Positions 25,082-35,646 of a stretch of DNA of 35,646 bases are shown in pieces. A model generated the notes under the pieces. That model saw only the letters and a list, made by a program, of their open reading frames with translations. It was not told where the DNA came from and searched no databases. Origin of the DNA: an uncultured Lachnospiraceae bacterium (GTDB lineage Bacteria > Bacillota > Clostridia > Lachnospirales > Lachnospiraceae); assembly GCA_944380185.1 (NCBI GenBank), contig CALWGV010000001.1:1-35646 (forward strand). The letters are read 5' to 3'. The stretch's first letter is position 1; the number at the start of each line of letters is the position of its first letter. A program made the position numbers and the translations under genes.

Positions 25082-25165
25082 GCGGGAGTGCTGGAATTGG
25101 CAGACAGGCAAGACTAAGGATCTTGTGGGTGTATGCTCGTGTGGGTTCAAGTCCCATCTCCCGCA
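25082..25165 (+). tRNA. tRNA-Leu (anticodon AAG)
   Basis: The 84-nt class II tRNA has the acceptor stem GCGGGAG / CTCCCGC and discriminator A, with no encoded CCA. The anticodon stem is CAAGA / TCTTG with loop CTAAGGA, giving anticodon AAG (25116-25118). The long variable arm and the GGGTTCAAGTCCC T-arm are those of tRNA-Leu. It reads CUU, and also CUC if A34 is converted to inosine. Confidence 0.95.
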
Positions 25166-25200
25166 GTTTGAAATTTTTTTGAGAATTTCGAAAAAATCTA

Positions 25201-25229
25201 TTGACATATGCGACAAATTCGTGTATGAT
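25201..25229 (+). promoter_or_regulatory. Promoter of the second tRNA-Leu gene
   Basis: A perfect TTGACA (25201-25206), a 17-bp spacer and TATGAT (25224-25229), ending 14 nt before the tRNA. Confidence 0.85.
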
Positions 25230-25243
25230 CTTATAAGTGTGAC

Positions 25244-25328
25244 GCAGTTGTGGCGGAATTGGCATACGCGCATGATTCAGGTTCATGTGAGCATTACGCT
25301 CGTGAGGGTTCAAGTCCCTCCAACTGCA
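25244..25328 (+). tRNA. tRNA-Leu (anticodon CAG)
   Basis: The 85-nt class II tRNA has the acceptor stem GCAGTTG / CAACTGC and discriminator A, with no encoded CCA. The anticodon stem is CATGA / TCATG with loop TTCAGGT, giving anticodon CAG (25278-25280) for CUG codons. The long variable arm is present. Confidence 0.96.
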
Positions 25329-25338
25329 CTTCTGAAAT

Positions 25339-30221: not shown

Positions 30222-30250
30222 TTGACAGGAGAGAAGAAAAGAGTTATCCT
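30222..30250 (+). promoter_or_regulatory. Promoter of the E1-alpha/E1-beta/E3 operon
   Basis: A perfect TTGACA (30222-30227), a 17-bp spacer and a weaker TATCCT (30245-30250). Confidence 0.55.
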
Positions 30251-30264
30251 AGTACCAGAAGAAG

Positions 30265-30292
30265 TTTACAAATTTAAAGTGTATTTACAAAT
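30265..30292 (+). promoter_or_regulatory. Direct repeats downstream of the E1 promoter, candidate SorC operator
   Basis: TTTACAAAT occurs at 30265-30273 and 30284-30292, a 19-bp period. A 7-bp inverted pair, TTAAAGT (30274-30280) / ACTTTAA (30297-30303), lies in the same place. Both fall just past the expected transcription start, where a repressor would block elongation. SorC proteins such as CggR bind direct repeats. Confidence 0.4.
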
Positions 30293-30341
30293 GATAACTT
30301 TAAGTCAATGTAAAAAATGTATGGAAAAGGAGACTGCAGAA

Positions 30342-31376
30342 ATGTCAGGAATCAGCGACAAAAGCCTGCTTTCGGACAGAAAATTTCTGAGAGAGCTGAT
30401 GGTACGGATGATGACGGTCAACCAGTTTGAGGAAAAAATATTCGAGCTTTTTGGCCAGGGACTGATTCACGGTACGATGCACCTGTGTATCGGCGAGGAA
30501 GCCACAGGTGTAGGTACCGGAGCAGCGCTTAAGAAAGAAGACTACTTGCTGGCGACCCATCGGGGACATGGACATGCCCTGGGCAAAGGCGTGGATCTGC
30601 GCGCTATGATGGCGGAGATTCTGGGCCGGGCGGGAGGAACTAACCATGGAAAGGGCGGCTCCATGCACATCTGCGATTTTGACAATGGTATGCTGGGGGC
30701 CAACGGTATTGTGGGGGCCAATGGCCCTATTGCCTGCGGAGCAGCGCTGACGATCAAGATGAAAAAGATACCGGACCGGGTCTGCGCGGCATACCTGGGA
30801 GACGGCGCTTCCAACGAAGGGGCGATTCTGGAGTCCATGAATCTGGCGGCTGTCTGGGATCTGCCGGTGCTGTTTATTTTGACCAACAACACTTACGGGC
30901 TCTCCACTCCCCTCGAGCGGGCGGTGCGCAATACGGATCTTAAGCAGAGGGCCAAAGCCTTCGGCTTTCCGGCCTGGGAGTGCGACGGCAATGATGTGCT
31001 GGCGGTCTATGAGACGGTGAAGAGAGCCAGGGACTATGTGATCCAGGAGAAAGGGCCGGTGATGGTAGTGGAGTACACCTACCGCACCTCCGGACATTCC
31101 AAAAGCGATAAAAATCTTTATCGTTCCCAGGAGGAGATCAAGTATTGGCAGGAGAGAAATCCCATCACTCGTTTCCGCTGTTTCCTGACAGAAAACAATA
31201 TTTTTTCGGATGAGGAGATCGACAGGATGCAGGTCGAGGCGGTGCAGGCAGTGTCAGATGCGGTAGACTATGCCTTGGCTTGTCCGGAGCCTTCCGCCGA
31301 GTATCTGGAAAAAGATGTGTATGCAGGAGAATATGCCGGAGTATACGGCGGTCCGGCTGCCGGGGAGGAGTCGTGA
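30342..31376 (+). CDS. Thiamine-diphosphate-dependent dehydrogenase E1 component, alpha subunit (acetoin/pyruvate type)
   Basis: The 344-residue protein has the ThDP signature from GDG at 153-155 to NN at 182-183, with ASNEGAILESMNLAAVW between. Around it are HRGHGHALGKG, GGSMHICD and TYRTSGHSKSD. Together with the beta subunit it decarboxylates a 2-oxo acid or acetoin and passes the acyl or aldehyde unit to a lipoyl domain. Acetoin dehydrogenase is favoured because the length and blocks resemble AcoA, but pyruvate or branched-chain substrates remain possible. The ATG at 30342 has AAAGGAGA 8 nt upstream. The stop TGA overlaps the E1-beta start. Confidence 0.92.
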   Translation: MSGISDKSLLSDRKFLRELMVRMMTVNQFEEKIFELFGQGLIHGTMHLCIGEEATGVGTGAALKKEDYLLATHRGHGHALGKGVDLRAMMAEILGRAGGTNHGKGGSMHICDFDNGMLGANGIVGANGPIACGAALTIKMKKIPDRVCAAYLGDGASNEGAILESMNLAAVWDLPVLFILTNNTYGLSTPLERAVRNTDLKQRAKAFGFPAWECDGNDVLAVYETVKRARDYVIQEKGPVMVVEYTYRTSGHSKSDKNLYRSQEEIKYWQERNPITRFRCFLTENNIFSDEEIDRMQVEAVQAVSDAVDYALACPEPSAEYLEKDVYAGEYAGVYGGPAAGEES

Positions 31377-32359
31377 TGGGTGCGGTGAGAGAGATTACTT
31401 ATCGTGAAGCGGTGCGCGAGGCCATGTGTGAGGAGATGCGCCGCGATGAAAATGTGTTCCTGATGGGGGAGGATATCGGTGCTTACGGCGGCGGCTTTGG
31501 CGTTTCTCTGGGGATGCTCCAGGAGTTCGGGCCGGAGCGTGTTCGTGAGACGCCGATCTCGGAGACTGCTTTTGTGGGCGCCGGCGTAGGTGCTGCTATC
31601 ACCGGGATGCGCCCCATTATCGATCTGATGTTTTCGGATTTTATGGCGGTCTGCTATGATCAGATCATCAACCAGGCGGCCAAGATGCATTTTATGTTTG
31701 CCGGAAAGATCAGTGTGCCCATGGTAATCCGCGGGGCTGCCGGAGGAGGCACCGGGGCGGCGGCCCAGCACTCTCAGTCCCTGGAGCAGATGTACTGTCA
31801 TGTTCCTGGCCTCAAGGTGGTGGTGCCCTCCACCCCATATGATGCCAAGGGCTTGCTCAAGGCGGCGATCCGTGACGACAACCCGGTGGTTTTCCTGGAG
31901 CAGAAAAAGCTGTATAATGTAAAAGGGCCTGTGCCCGATGAGGAGTATTTGATTCCCCTGGGAAAGGCTGATGTGAAAAGAGAAGGGACAGATGTGACCC
32001 TGATTACTTACGGCAGGATGGTGCCCTATTGCCTGTCTGTCGCGGAAAAGCTGGTAAAGGAGGAGATCAGAGTGGAAGTGCTGGACCTGCGCTCTCTCAG
32101 TCCCCTGGATAAGCCGGCTATCATAGAGTCCGTGAAAAAGACGGGCCGGGCCGTGGTAGTTCACGAGGCGGTGGAGTTTGCCGGTTTCGGCGGTGAGATC
32201 GTCAGCGTGATCATGGACAGCGATGCCTTCTGCCAGTTGAAAGCTCCGGTGAAGCGGGTGGGAGGCCGGTTCTGTCCTGTGCCGTTTAACGCGAATCTGG
32301 AAAAGGAGGCTTTCCCGACGGAGGAGAGGATCGAAGCGGCGGTGCGGGAGATCCTGTAA
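31376..32359 (+). CDS. Dehydrogenase E1 component, beta subunit (transketolase-like)
   Basis: The 327-residue protein has the pyrimidine-binding domain (ENVFLMGEDIGAYGGGFG, ETPISETAFVGAGVGAA, RGAAGGGTGAAAQHSQSLE) and the C-terminal transketolase domain (LRSLSPLDKPAI, VVHEAVEFAGFGGEI). The start ATG shares its A with the alpha stop codon (TGATG), so translation is coupled. GGGGAGGAG lies upstream. It forms the alpha2-beta2 E1 with the previous gene. Position and sequence both fit acetoin or pyruvate dehydrogenase. Confidence 0.93.
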   Translation: MGAVREITYREAVREAMCEEMRRDENVFLMGEDIGAYGGGFGVSLGMLQEFGPERVRETPISETAFVGAGVGAAITGMRPIIDLMFSDFMAVCYDQIINQAAKMHFMFAGKISVPMVIRGAAGGGTGAAAQHSQSLEQMYCHVPGLKVVVPSTPYDAKGLLKAAIRDDNPVVFLEQKKLYNVKGPVPDEEYLIPLGKADVKREGTDVTLITYGRMVPYCLSVAEKLVKEEIRVEVLDLRSLSPLDKPAIIESVKKTGRAVVVHEAVEFAGFGGEIVSVIMDSDAFCQLKAPVKRVGGRFCPVPFNANLEKEAFPTEERIEAAVREIL

Positions 32360-32444
32360 CTTAAGATTTGGCCGGCCAGGGTAAACACGGGAAAAGAAAT
32401 GCCGGCTATTTTGTCAAACGATTAAGTATGGGGAGGAAGACAAG

Positions 32445-33887
32445 ATGGAGAAGGATTGGACAAAAACAGCCGAGGAAGAGAGGCTGCAGAGGCAGGGAGA
32501 GTACGATGTAGCCGTCATCGGCGGCGGCCCGGCCGGCTACGTGGCGGCGATTCGGGCGGCCCAGCTGGGGGCGAGGGTGGTTCTCTTTGAGCGGGACACG
32601 GTGGGAGGCACCTGTCTGAACCGGGGCTGCATTCCCACGAAGACCTATCTGAAAACAGCCGAGTATATCCGTCATATCAAGGGGGCGGCGGCCAGGGGAA
32701 TTATTGCCGATTCCCATGTTCAGGTGGACATGCCCAAGGTAGTTTCCTATAAGGATCGGGTGGTAAAGACCCTGACTGCCGGGGTGTCCGGCCTCTTAAA
32801 GGGAAATCAGGTGGAGGTGGTAAAGGGAGACGCCCGCCTGGGCTCGGCTCTGGCCACGGGGGAAAAGGCGGTGGAGTGCGGGGACCGTACCTATACGGCG
32901 GCCAAGGTGATTCTCTGCGGGGGCTCCCGCGTGATGGAGCTGCCGATTCCCGGAGCCGACGGTCCCGCGGTGATGACCAGCGATGAGATCCTGGATTTAA
33001 AGGAGCTCCCCGGCCGTCTCGCCGTCATCGGCGGCGGCGTGGTAGGCTGCGAGCTGGCCTCGGCCTTCGCTTCCTTTGGCTGCAAGGTGACGGTGGTGGA
33101 GCTGTGCGATCGGATTTTAGCCAATATGGATGCGGACATCTCGGCTGAGCTGGAAAAGAGCCTGAAAAAAAGCGGCGTCAAGGTATTGTGCGGCCGCCGG
33201 GTAGAAGGGATCGAGAGCCGGGACGGGGAGACGGCGGTAGTCACCGACCAGGGCGAAGTTCCCTGTGACCGGGTGCTTCTTGCCGCCGGCCGGGCGGCCG
33301 ACCTGTCCTGCCTGGGCGATATGGCAGGGGAGATTCAAACGGAAAAGGGAAAGGTGATCGCGGACGATGCCATGCGCACCAGCGTGCCGGAAATCTATGC
33401 CTGCGGCGATATCACTGGGAAAATCATGCTGGCCCATGCTGCCTCCCGGATGGGAGAGACGGCGGCGGAAAATGCCGTGACCGGGGAGGATAAGGCCTGT
33501 GACCTGCGCTTTGTCCCCAGCTGCATTTACACCCATCCCGAGGCTGCCGGCGTAGGGCTTACCGAGGAGCAGGCCAGGGCCGCGTACCCGGAGGGGCTCC
33601 GGGTGGGCCGCGTGGCCCTGGCGGCCAACGGCAGAAGCGTGGCCGCCGGGGAGAGGCAGGGCTTTGTGAAGGTCATTGCCGGGAAGGACGGAGAGCTTCT
33701 GGGCGTTCATATGGTCGGGGGAGACGCCTCGGAGATGATCGCCGAGGCAGCCGCCCTGATGGCTGTCGGGGCCACGGTGGATGCGATCACGGAACATGTT
33801 ATCCATCCCCATCCCAGCTATTCGGAGGCCTTCGCAGAGGCCTGCGCCGACGTTCTGGGCCGGGCGATCCACCAGCCCGTCGGCTGA
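32445..33887 (+). CDS. lpdA: Dihydrolipoyl dehydrogenase (E3)
   Basis: The 480-residue FAD enzyme reoxidises the dihydrolipoyl group and reduces NAD+. The FAD site is VAVIGGGPAGYVAA. The redox disulfide is in GGTCLNRGCIPTK (Cys57 and Cys62). The NAD site is LAVIGGGVVGCELA, and the active-site His-Glu pair is in HPHPSYSEAF. A 15-20-residue N-terminal extension precedes the FAD domain, but it is far too short to be a lipoyl domain. GGGGAGGAAGAC precedes the ATG. It lies 85 nt after E1-beta. No E2 acyltransferase gene lies between or after, so the partner must be encoded elsewhere. Confidence 0.95.
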   Translation: MEKDWTKTAEEERLQRQGEYDVAVIGGGPAGYVAAIRAAQLGARVVLFERDTVGGTCLNRGCIPTKTYLKTAEYIRHIKGAAARGIIADSHVQVDMPKVVSYKDRVVKTLTAGVSGLLKGNQVEVVKGDARLGSALATGEKAVECGDRTYTAAKVILCGGSRVMELPIPGADGPAVMTSDEILDLKELPGRLAVIGGGVVGCELASAFASFGCKVTVVELCDRILANMDADISAELEKSLKKSGVKVLCGRRVEGIESRDGETAVVTDQGEVPCDRVLLAAGRAADLSCLGDMAGEIQTEKGKVIADDAMRTSVPEIYACGDITGKIMLAHAASRMGETAAENAVTGEDKACDLRFVPSCIYTHPEAAGVGLTEEQARAAYPEGLRVGRVALAANGRSVAAGERQGFVKVIAGKDGELLGVHMVGGDASEMIAEAAALMAVGATVDAITEHVIHPHPSYSEAFAEACADVLGRAIHQPVG

Positions 33888-33945: not shown

Positions 33946-35421
33946 TTAGCTCACCGGCTGATTGACGATGCCGGCAAAGAGGGGGGAGCCGTCGTAGCCG
34001 GTGATGACAAAGAGGAAGGGGCGGTCCAGGACAAAGTCCACCTCTTCATCCGGCGGGGCTCCCGCCCCGGCTGTCGCTATCACCGTGTAGGCTGCGGCGG
34101 TAACGCCCTCTTCATCCACCGCCACCCGAGCGGCGTGATCGGCCTGGGACAGATAGATCTCATCCGCCTCGTAGGTCATCGGGGAGAAGTCGGCGGCATA
34201 AGGGTCAAAAACATCGGTGATCCCCATGGCCTGCAGGCTTTCTGGCAGGCGCAGGTCGGAGGAGACGTCGAATTTGGGCATCGCCAGGTTGACGATCAGA
34301 TAGCGGCTGTCGGTCCAGCTTTCCCGCTCAAAGAGCAGGCGGGGCACATTTTCATCGGTCAGCAGAGCCTCCGCCTCCACGCCTTCGTCCGGGAGGAAGA
34401 GCCACATGGAGCCGCTCTCTTCCAGGCGAAGGGCCACGGCGGCGAACTGGTCGCTCCAGTAATAGTTTCTTGTGCCGCTCTGGTGCATGAAATCACAGGA
34501 AATATCCCCGGAGGGCGAATGGAAAACGCCCTCTTTTGTGTTGCTTTCCGAAAATTCCCCGTCCCATTTGGCCCGGAAATAGATGGTGCTGGCCAGAGCC
34601 AGGATAGTTTCCTCCGGCATCGTGATATCCTGGGCCTGTTCTGCCAGGAGGCCTCCGGTCTGCTCGTTCAGCCAGTCCTTCAGCTGCCGGTCGAAGGCGG
34701 CAGAGCCCATCTCGCCCCGGTAGGCGGAGGCGTAGTAGACGGAGGCCAGACGATCCATCGTCTCCTGGCGAAAGATCACGTCCTCATTCAGCCACAGGGA
34801 GTTGGCCAGGATGCTGGTGACGGCCCCGTCGTCGCAGTAACTGGCATTCCACAGGGCCGAGGCTTTCTCCCGCAGAGCTTCAATATCCGCTGTGCCCAGG
34901 ACGTCCAGGATCTGCTCCCGGCTCTGTCCGTCGGTGAGTTCGGCCAGCATCGAGAGGGCCATATAGAGGTTCAGCGGAGAATAGACCCGGTTTTCCCCCT
35001 CTGCCCCGGACAGAAGGGCCGCAGAGGCGGCGGGAAAGAAGGATTCCAGCCCGTCCTGGTAGCCCTCCGGCTGGTCGAGCTGGGCCTGGCGGCTCTCTCT
35101 CCAGGCGTCGTACACCTGGGAAAAGCCCTCGTCGTCAAAATCGCCGGTGAGGGAGATGTAGTCCGACTCATCGGGATAGGGGGCCATTTCTGGATAAGCT
35201 GCCTCGGCGATAACGGAGGCCTGAGACGGCGAACCCGGCAGCAGGAGCCAGGTGACAAACAGACAGATACAGGCGGCCGCGGCCGTCCCTGCGACCCACA
35301 GAGGACGTTTTCCCCTGTGCTTTTTTTTGTCGTTTGCTTTCTTGCTCCGCATTTCATCGGCGGCAGAAGTCAGTTCCTCGTCCAGCATACCAATGGCATC
35401 GCTTAAAGTTTCCGGTTTCAT
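33946..35421 (-). CDS. Membrane-anchored serpin, candidate anti-sigma partner
   Basis: The 491-residue protein has a charged N-terminal segment of about 39 residues (MKPETLSDAIGMLDEELTSA), a Lys/Arg-rich stop and one membrane helix at about 41-61. A serpin domain follows from about residue 105. Serpin blocks visible are NRVYSPLNLYMALSMLA, a YFRAKWDGEF block, and RPFLFVI. The hinge EEGVTAAAYTV at 437-447 has the small residues that allow insertion of the reactive loop, so it should inhibit. P1 by standard counting is Ala453. The start ATG overlaps the stop of the sigma factor gene (ATGA). The N-terminal-in, serpin-out topology is inferred from the charge pattern. An inhibitor, a sensor, or both are possible. 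Confidence 0.9.
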   Translation of the reverse strand: MKPETLSDAIGMLDEELTSAADEMRSKKANDKKKHRGKRPLWVAGTAAAACICLFVTWLLLPGSPSQASVIAEAAYPEMAPYPDESDYISLTGDFDDEGFSQVYDAWRESRQAQLDQPEGYQDGLESFFPAASAALLSGAEGENRVYSPLNLYMALSMLAELTDGQSREQILDVLGTADIEALREKASALWNASYCDDGAVTSILANSLWLNEDVIFRQETMDRLASVYYASAYRGEMGSAAFDRQLKDWLNEQTGGLLAEQAQDITMPEETILALASTIYFRAKWDGEFSESNTKEGVFHSPSGDISCDFMHQSGTRNYYWSDQFAAVALRLEESGSMWLFLPDEGVEAEALLTDENVPRLLFERESWTDSRYLIVNLAMPKFDVSSDLRLPESLQAMGITDVFDPYAADFSPMTYEADEIYLSQADHAARVAVDEEGVTAAAYTVIATAGAGAPPDEEVDFVLDRPFLFVITGYDGSPLFAGIVNQPVS

Positions 35422-35646
35422 AAGGCAAATCCCTCCTTTTCAAGGTGTGCCCGCAGGCCGATTCGCGTCCGGTGCAGGGCGCTTTTGACCATGGACTGGG
35501 AGACGCCGAAGAAGTCTGCGATCTCCCGCACCGGATCCAGGAAATAGTAGCGGCAGATAAAGATATCGCGGGTCTGCTTCGGGCAGGAGCGAAGATAAGT
35601 GCCGATTGCCTCCGCCAGGGCGGCAAGCTCGATCTGTTCCTGCGGG
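35418..35646 (-). CDS. ECF RNA polymerase sigma factor, C-terminal part (cut by the window edge)
   Basis: The last 75 residues of a protein run off the window end. They hold sigma region 4: PKQTRDIFICRYYF, then the helix-turn-helix VREIADFFGVSQSMVKSALH and RTRIGLRAHL. This binds the -35 element. The stop TGA overlaps the serpin ATG, which indicates a translationally coupled pair. Region 2 and the promoter lie outside the window. The assignment as sigma-70 family, ECF type, rests on region 4 and the neighbour. Confidence 0.88.
   Translation of the reverse strand, partial: PQEQIELAALAEAIGTYLRSCPKQTRDIFICRYYFLDPVREIADFFGVSQSMVKSALHRTRIGLRAHLEKEGFAL

Follow-up and report, generated by a model that had tools for sequence, protein, structure and literature searches.

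A serpin coupled to an ECF sigma factor in gut Clostridia: a likely membrane anti-sigma factor and candidate protease sensor

The stretch of DNA analysed here (the window; 35,646 nucleotides, one entire contig, G000:C1 of 35646 bp) carries at its right end the gene for a membrane-anchored serpin that overlaps the gene for an ECF sigma factor (Table 1). The best explanation of this arrangement, toward which we lean by a modest degree, is that the protein is a RsiV-like transmembrane anti-sigma factor with a serpin ectodomain, in which the trapping of a protease starts regulated proteolysis and frees the sigma factor. The parts of this reading differ in strength. From comparison of sequences, the sigma-serpin pairing and the N-terminal module are well supported, and an anti-sigma role of the serpin N-terminus is likely; that the serpin does the sensing, with protease trapping as the signal that frees the sigma factor, is what we infer.

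The overlap of the sigma stop codon with the serpin start codon, read by the initial annotation, was confirmed, as were a charged N-terminus with the string DAIGMLDEEL, one hydrophobic helix (at low AF2 confidence) and a serpin domain. Residues 140-489 of the window protein match Pfam Serpin with an E-value of 7.4e-66, which places it in the serpin superfamily. The contig, all of which the window covers, ends inside the sigma gene and so leaves it incomplete. A complete factor is encoded in a 96% relative (L003): it has 202 amino acids with region 2 (PF04542, E 3.5e-8) and region 4 (PF08281, E 1.3e-6), and SigW and CnrH are among its matches to solved structures, in agreement with the initial assignment as an ECF sigma factor. 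The serpin is encoded beside a sigma gene, spans the membrane once and has a cytoplasmic N-terminus, an orientation inferred because a basic stretch precedes the helix; these are the attributes of a transmembrane anti-sigma factor. In the window's genome (84% complete) one serpin gene was found, namely this one.

Table 1. Positions in the window of the serpin gene, the sigma gene remnant and the features they contain.
Feature	Position	Strand	Basis or remark
Serpin gene, 491 aa	33946..35421	-	Cytoplasmic anti-sigma-like segment, one transmembrane helix, N-terminal extension and serpin domain
ECF sigma factor gene, 3' end, 75 codons, region 4 only	35418..35645	-	Pfam Sigma70_r4_2, E 1.8e-7
ATGA overlap of sigma TGA with serpin ATG	35418..35421	-	
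Shine-Dalgarno-like AAAAGGAGGG for the serpin, within the sigma gene	35431..35440	-	By eye
21-residue N-terminal motif KPETLSDAIGMLDEELTSAAD, proposed sigma-binding segment	35356..35418	-	Matrix score 20.9 (read from the own-contig copy, L155) versus 9.7 at the 99.9% shuffle level
Single transmembrane helix, about residues 41-61, basic stretch before it	35239..35301	-	AF2 helix 43-59 (low confidence), hydropathy
Juxtamembrane segment ASVIAEAAYPEMAPYPD with AxA site, candidate site-1 region; modelled strand 69-72 at its start	35170..35220	-	
N-terminal extension, residues 66-120	35062..35226	-	Modelled at high confidence from about residue 71
Serpin domain proper, residues 123-489	33955..35055	-	Pfam, AF2 model, fold comparison
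Reactive centre loop P17-P4', EEGVTAAAYTVIATAGA/GAPP, P1 Ala453, P1' Gly454	34051..34113	-	P1 placed by counting from P15

We scanned one-genome-per-species contigs with an alignment of six fused serpins as the query and took the best 80 of 168 loci, a set skewed to near relatives and drawn, by title, mostly from gut or rumen genomes. The initial annotation had suggested a search for other ECF sigma/serpin pairs, and such pairs proved frequent: an ECF sigma gene lay directly upstream of the serpin in 62 of these 80 loci (best 80 of 168), the sigma factor being of the window's class (class a) in 53 and of a second class (class b) in nine (L108, L110, L111, L112, L116, L120, L123, L133 and L138). 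The class-b-coupled serpins have another N-terminus, of the kind RYKxANEGIHAPEELKEK. The gap between the two genes was -4 (ATGA) in 54 of the 62 coupled loci, and otherwise -14 (three loci), -11 (one), +3 (two) or larger (the class-a loci L107 and L134). The other 18 serpins, lipoproteins and membrane serpins among them, have no sigma gene directly upstream, and for three of these (L076, L093 and L094) a class-a sigma gene lies elsewhere in the locus. Across the family as a whole the picture is another one: serpins were present in 140 of 397 genomes, and among 29 general family serpin loci (30 were fetched, L049 repeating L028), searched with two sigma profiles, L040 alone was directly fused, and to a third kind of N-terminus.

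In relatives, class-a sigma genes are also followed, mostly at -4, by partners that are not serpins. These are single-pass proteins with very diverse ectodomains; by Pfam, ten of them gave Ig-like domains (two), a beta-propeller (one), sub-threshold matches to DUF4179 (two) or no match (five). From 30 of the 31 non-serpin class-a partners we built a 21-residue matrix, leaving out L042, which is short in the alignment; L196 and L106, which were in the wrong frame, are not among the 31. The matrix was run along the N-terminal portions of all 80 serpins with the 99.9% level of 8000 shuffles as the cut-off. It marked 52 of the 53 class-a-coupled serpins and none of the 27 others, of which nine are coupled to class b and 18 have no sigma gene directly upstream (best 80 of 168 loci). 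Over 149 serpin rows, kinship being ignored, the motif was present in 56 of 58 serpins directly after a class-a sigma gene versus one of 91 others. This count takes in the G008 rows (L021_1407p and L166), which go against a perfect match, as well as L003, L004 and the window; L003 is nearly a copy of the window, and L021_0p and L166 represent one gene. Without seven of 150 rows (L003, L004, L155, L166, L168 and two of L021), some of them duplicates, it becomes 53 of 54 versus 0 of 89.

Motif presence and sigma adjacency agree in 146 of the 149 rows, the three that disagree being L114, L021_1407p and L166_2055p. In L114 the motif is weak (matrix score 5.2) yet visible by eye, and the single motif-bearing row among the 91 (L021/L204) belongs to a sigma operon. 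In G008 a secreted serpin without the motif adjoins the sigma gene, and the motif is found on the next serpin of the same operon. A 50-residue HMM of the N-terminus gave poor separation, with several clear motif proteins near or below zero, which we put down to the hydrophobic helix and to bias correction. The comparison supports the view that residues 1 to ~25 form a module linked to sigma and common to other membrane partners of class-a sigma factors and, in the operons looked at, that there is one such module per sigma gene. In the tandem loci L093, L100, L136, L120, L138 and L076, the serpin just downstream of the sigma gene has the module of its class and the other copy lacks it, the module-less copies often being, by eye, still membrane-anchored. 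In L202, L203, L205 and L208 a membrane protein distinct from the serpins bears the motif, and the serpins resemble free lipoproteins; therefore serpins also appear to be a plain output of such operons.

On a tree of the serpin domains containing 58 fused rows, fused and unfused forms alternate many times. At least nine changes of the fused label are forced by well-supported branches and 22 occur on the best tree, counts that may shift by one owing to a single row label (L021_0p). Well-supported branches provided eight independent pairs; on average 6.9 of these showed the motif going with the sigma gene, and none showed the reverse (p 0.016). Among 56 fused class-a pairs, the distance between N-terminal motifs correlated with sigma distance at r 0.66, compared to 0.28 with serpin-domain distance. 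The partial correlation of motif and sigma factor given the serpin was 0.62 (p 0.0005, 2000 permutations), and that of motif and serpin given the sigma factor was -0.05 (p 0.83). These partial correlations indicate that the motif is tied to the product of the neighbouring gene and not to the rest of its own protein; co-inheritance through the motif's nearness to the sigma gene may add to the motif-sigma correlation. The sigma-serpin pairing is thus an architecture that recurs and has been remade repeatedly, for the most part in gut Clostridia. The proposal of the initial annotation, that the N-terminus is a putative sigma-binding segment and the serpin the ectodomain of an anti-sigma factor, has strong comparative support from the motif scan, the independent pairs and the partial correlation.

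If the arrangement were a chance neighbourhood, an unrelated sigma gene would overlap, by accident, the gene of a serpin whose signal anchor is of the ordinary sort. Nothing was found in favour of this beyond the 18 of 80 related serpins without a sigma gene directly upstream, and it is refuted by the motif scan and the independent-pair test; with 62 of 80 loci coupled (best 80 of 168), agreement of motif and sigma gene in 146 of 149 rows and a partial correlation with the sigma factor, we find it scarcely credible. The initial annotation had held that serpins of the same type found routinely without a sigma partner and with ordinary signal peptides would speak against its proposal. Such serpins do occur (18 of 80), yet the motif was found in 0 of the 18, and since the sigma-less serpins all lack it they count in favour of the pairing.

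Another alternative is that the N-terminus restrains the sigma factor while the serpin, mounted on an anchor that happened to suit, is no more than an effector or has ceased to inhibit; the sigma factor would then answer some other membrane signal. The operons in which another membrane protein bears the motif and the serpins seem to be free lipoproteins (L202, L203, L205 and L208) agree with this, as does the aromatic P9 residue of the reactive centre loop. We nevertheless judge it improbable, given the architecture changes forced by the well-supported branches and the attachment of serpins to two different N-terminal modules; together, these indicate selection for the fusion as such.

The reactive centre loop was compared over 54 class-a proteins. 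P17 is Glu and P15 is Gly in all 54; Ala occupies P12 in 51, P11 in 46 and P10 in 53, and Thr occupies P8 in 53. P14 is Val or Cys in 49 of the 54, and P9 is aromatic in every one (Tyr in 32, Phe in 22), including the window protein, whose hinge reads EEGVTAAAYT with Tyr at P9. Inhibitory hinges usually have small residues at P9 and P14. The 'intact hinge' of the initial annotation therefore holds from P17 to P10 and does not hold at P9. A plainly dead loop is not supported, as all 54 proteins retain P17 and P15 and 53 of them retain P8, but the aromatic P9 leaves doubt. Counted from P15, P1 is small (Ala, Ser, Gly, Thr or Cys) in 51 of 54 proteins, the ProPro spacing at P3'-P4' that fixes P1 well being present in only 26 of 54. 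The small P1 suggests elastase- or subtilisin-like proteases as targets.

The AF2 model of the window protein had a mean pLDDT of 82 and a pTM of 0.79. Two N-terminal helices and the membrane helix were modelled at low confidence, after which come a strand (residues 69-72), a helix (residues 97-115) and the usual serpin, the blocks within residues 71-120 scoring 88-95; the fold comparison covered mainly residues 113-491. The strand at 69-72 belongs to a conserved segment, AxAxAxYPEMAPYP. Where the YP segment was usable (65 of 69 sigma-coupled rows and 29 of 80 other rows), an AxA within the 10 residues before YP occurred in 55 of 65 sigma-coupled serpins versus 15 of 29 others. Ala stood at -2, -4 and -6 from the Tyr in 60, 45 and 44 of the 65 sigma-coupled serpins, and in 19, 16 and 11 of the 29 others. 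With kinship ignored, the enrichment in sigma-coupled serpins reached p 0.002 at -2 and p 0.012 at -6; at -4 it was not significant in these 65 versus 29 rows (p 0.24). AxAxYPEM is also seen in serpins without a sigma gene, and therefore the segment has at least one other role. The window's own genome contains matches to one M50 site-2 protease and to three signal peptidase genes.

The distance from the membrane helix to YP ranges from 14 to 70 residues among the 54 class-a proteins, a variability that means some stalks could be accessible. This bears on an alternative in which the N-terminus is likewise the anti-sigma segment and the signal is a protease cutting the exposed stalk directly; the serpin would then set only a threshold, by trapping some proteases first, and would not be the switch. 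The evidence for the anti-sigma module is identical under this alternative, and the presence of quite other ectodomains (Ig-like, beta-propeller) on the same module is in keeping with it. It is harder to reconcile with the conservation of the juxtamembrane segment, with a model that is confident from about residue 71, and with the near invariance of P17, P15, P10 and P8, since a mere shield need not be so strict. We consider direct cutting of the stalk unlikely, but worth keeping in view.

A 38-column promoter matrix was seeded from five class-a operons that lack a fused serpin. Training used 18 of 33 operons of this kind, after which the matrix was frozen; the training operon L208 has a separate serpin downstream, and L094, a cut serpin operon, is among the 33 but outside the 18. 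Applied to 57 regions upstream of serpin loci, close relatives among them, the matrix reached the 99% shuffle level in 24 (0.6 expected) and the 95% level in 30 (2.9 expected), leaving 27 of 57 below. Two of the 57 regions belong to second class-a sigma genes in L096 and L127, and with one of each removed the count at the 99% level is at least 22 of 55. The sites consist of a TGTAA-like element and, ~16 bases on, GCGAC or GTAG, then TATAGGTGA; they begin 22-86 bases before the sigma start, with one at 137. General word counts upstream returned mostly ribosome-binding sites. The window's own promoter falls beyond the contig end. In the nearest relative, L063, no promoter site was seen by eye in the ~184 bases available; a 77% relative, L064, has a match by eye, but its matrix score, obtained under the label L004, is only 0.9.

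In six whole genomes, picked for carrying the pattern, the 19-base core of the promoter gave 12 matches: six before serpin operons, two before other sigma genes (named by eye) and four elsewhere. From these 12 matches, the regulon is probably narrow. Since many class-a sigma genes have an ECF-like promoter, the operon probably feeds itself. The ECF-like promoter upstream of the operon, the scarcity of further sites, and an operon whose overlapping genes encode the sigma factor, the anti-sigma segment and the inhibitor together would also suit a scheme of consumption without any conformational relay, in which each trapped protease removes one serpin from the membrane by shedding and turnover, and the drop in anti-sigma factor frees the sigma factor, which refills the pool; sensing would then amount to a tally of used-up inhibitor. 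The suicide chemistry of serpins, which is established, fits this scheme too. However, the N-terminal segment must also go, so that some proteolysis is still required, and for the closest relative no promoter was seen. We hold consumption alone to be rather improbable.

The reading we prefer, a RsiV-like anti-sigma factor opened by protease trapping, would work as follows. At rest, the N-terminal helices would hold the sigma factor at the membrane, and outside the cell the loop with its small P1 would serve as bait for elastase- or subtilisin-like serine proteases. A protease that cut the loop would make the serpin snap irreversibly into the relaxed form, the protease staying attached. The juxtamembrane segment (AxAxYPEM) would then be undocked, or the complex shed, and a site-1 protease, with signal peptidase as the candidate, would gain access to the stalk. 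A site-2 protease would next cut within the membrane and so free the sigma factor. The freed sigma factor would transcribe the operon that encodes it, so that spent serpin would be replaced and the neighbouring serpins added where these are present. Such a serpin would be a one-shot inhibitor that otherwise worked like RsiV.

A bolder form of this proposal, which we advance only tentatively, takes the serpin as a one-shot mechanical trigger: its spring-loaded change would open the anti-sigma factor to proteolysis, so that proteases would be counted one by one and the spent inhibitor rebuilt through a sigma factor directed at its own operon, the fusion having arisen or been remade repeatedly on at least two, perhaps three, sigma-linked N-terminal modules. 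If the preferred reading is right, one widespread protein would join defence, sensing and gene control, and through it one could ask directly what proteases bacteria of the gut actually encounter. It would be, to our knowledge, the first case of a serpin conformational change signalling across a bacterial membrane. Serpins are widespread in bacteria, yet a 2019 review calls their physiological functions elusive and data on their regulation lacking (PMC6718151).

We found no sigma-serpin pair in the PMC literature by title or abstract start, among the matches listed, a scope outside which most subscription papers fall. Three cellulosome papers name both elements, and in the parts of their text covered here serpins and anti-sigma factors are unconnected. 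Siropins are reported in sections of one paper to inhibit neutrophil elastase and proteinase 3, and those sections mention no sigma partner; the text of that paper has 0 matches to 'transmembrane' (PMC5127057). The serpins of Clostridium thermocellum are suggested, in the passage cited, to protect cellulosomes from subtilisin-like proteases (PMC12484212). In Bifidobacterium breve, according to an excerpt of the report, transcription of a gut serpin operon is induced by protease (PMC8012564). There a separate two-component system takes part, whereas here the serpin appears to be built into the regulator, with one molecule seemingly serving as both sensor and inhibitor.

The initial annotation had offered SigI/RsgI as its example of an ECF pair; SigI is not a classical ECF sigma factor, and SigV/RsiV is the closer parallel. 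The window pair would be like SigI/RsgI in joining a sigma factor to a membrane anti-sigma factor that carries an extracellular part, and in RsgI the sensors bind polysaccharide. As stated in passages on the C. thermocellum system, the carbohydrate-binding module of RsgI detects polysaccharide (PMC12484212), and RseP cleaves RsgI in its membrane helix (PMC12203970). RsgI-type Pfam domains gave no match in the window protein at E-values up to 1. DUF4179, the domain that in the RsiV family starts at the membrane helix and continues beyond it, likewise gave none in the window protein (E up to 1) or in 54 aligned serpin proteins (E up to 0.001), so that the domains tested place the window protein in neither the RsiV nor the RsgI family. 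Two of the ten non-serpin partners of the same sigma class do have sub-threshold matches to DUF4179.

Tengpin of Thermoanaerobacter tengcongensis (PDB 2pee) offers a likeness of another kind, as a bacterial serpin with a functional N-terminal region; native tengpin aligns to model residues 66-489, a range given by the first and last aligned residue only. The N terminus of tengpin reportedly traps the metastable native state, and we know of no joining of tengpin to a sigma module. In Bacillus subtilis, RsiV is at once an inhibitor and a sensor of lysozyme and keeps sigma V in check; signal peptidase and, after it, RasP cleave RsiV, the signal peptidase cutting only with lysozyme bound (PMC5014341, PMC6066255). 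It is because RsiV is cut only with lysozyme, because the N-terminal region has a role in tengpin and because the alignment starts at residue 66 that we propose release of the juxtamembrane segment by a loop-cleaved serpin. The window pair would thus resemble SigV/RsiV as a sigma factor with a single-pass anti-sigma factor whose ectodomain is an enzyme inhibitor, both the inhibitory and the anti-sigma role of the serpin being predicted. It would differ from RsiV in that the inhibitor is a serpin, of an unrelated sequence family and irreversible in action, and in that the expected ligand is a protease and not lysozyme.

A third kind of sigma-serpin fusion is found in L040, a locus of genome G125, where a 720-aa frame overlaps another sigma gene by 17 bases. 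This frame has a membrane helix and a serpin at its C-terminus, and its N-terminus differs from those of the other fusions. The sigma class of most serpin-coupled loci (class a) and the N-terminal module of the fused serpins also occur together with other ectodomains, which among three such frames are a beta-propeller, an Ig-like domain and one of unknown type. Each of these ectodomains is a candidate for an uncharacterised sensor.

At L042 and L062, two loci from the family search, the motif is on a membrane protein distinct from the serpin, and both proteins are encoded, along with a class-a sigma factor, within ~4 kb. Directly upstream of the serpin triplet of L075, a sigma gene is absent.

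By eye, the three dehydrogenase-like genes beside the serpin in the window are transcribed toward it. The last of them, the dihydrolipoamide dehydrogenase-like gene, also adjoins the serpin in L004, the locus of the 77% relative.

Coordinates of features in the window and in loci of relatives
Feature	Location	Remark
E1 alpha-, E1 beta- and dihydrolipoamide dehydrogenase-like genes	window 30222-33887	strand opposite serpin; by eye
tRNA-Leu pair, adjoining	window 25082-25329	anticodons aag and cag
Three serpin genes in tandem	L075:5893-9884	lipobox-like starts by eye
Serpin with two N-terminal dockerin-like repeats	L132:5401-7251	repeats by eye
Non-serpin protein with class-a sigma partner and N-terminal module	L176:1089-2591	
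Same	L167:86-1501	
Same	L172:2046-3170	

In L132, a weak sigma match lies in a frame ending 164 bases upstream of the serpin, whose dockerin-like repeats, seen by eye, are its likeness to cellulosomal serpins.
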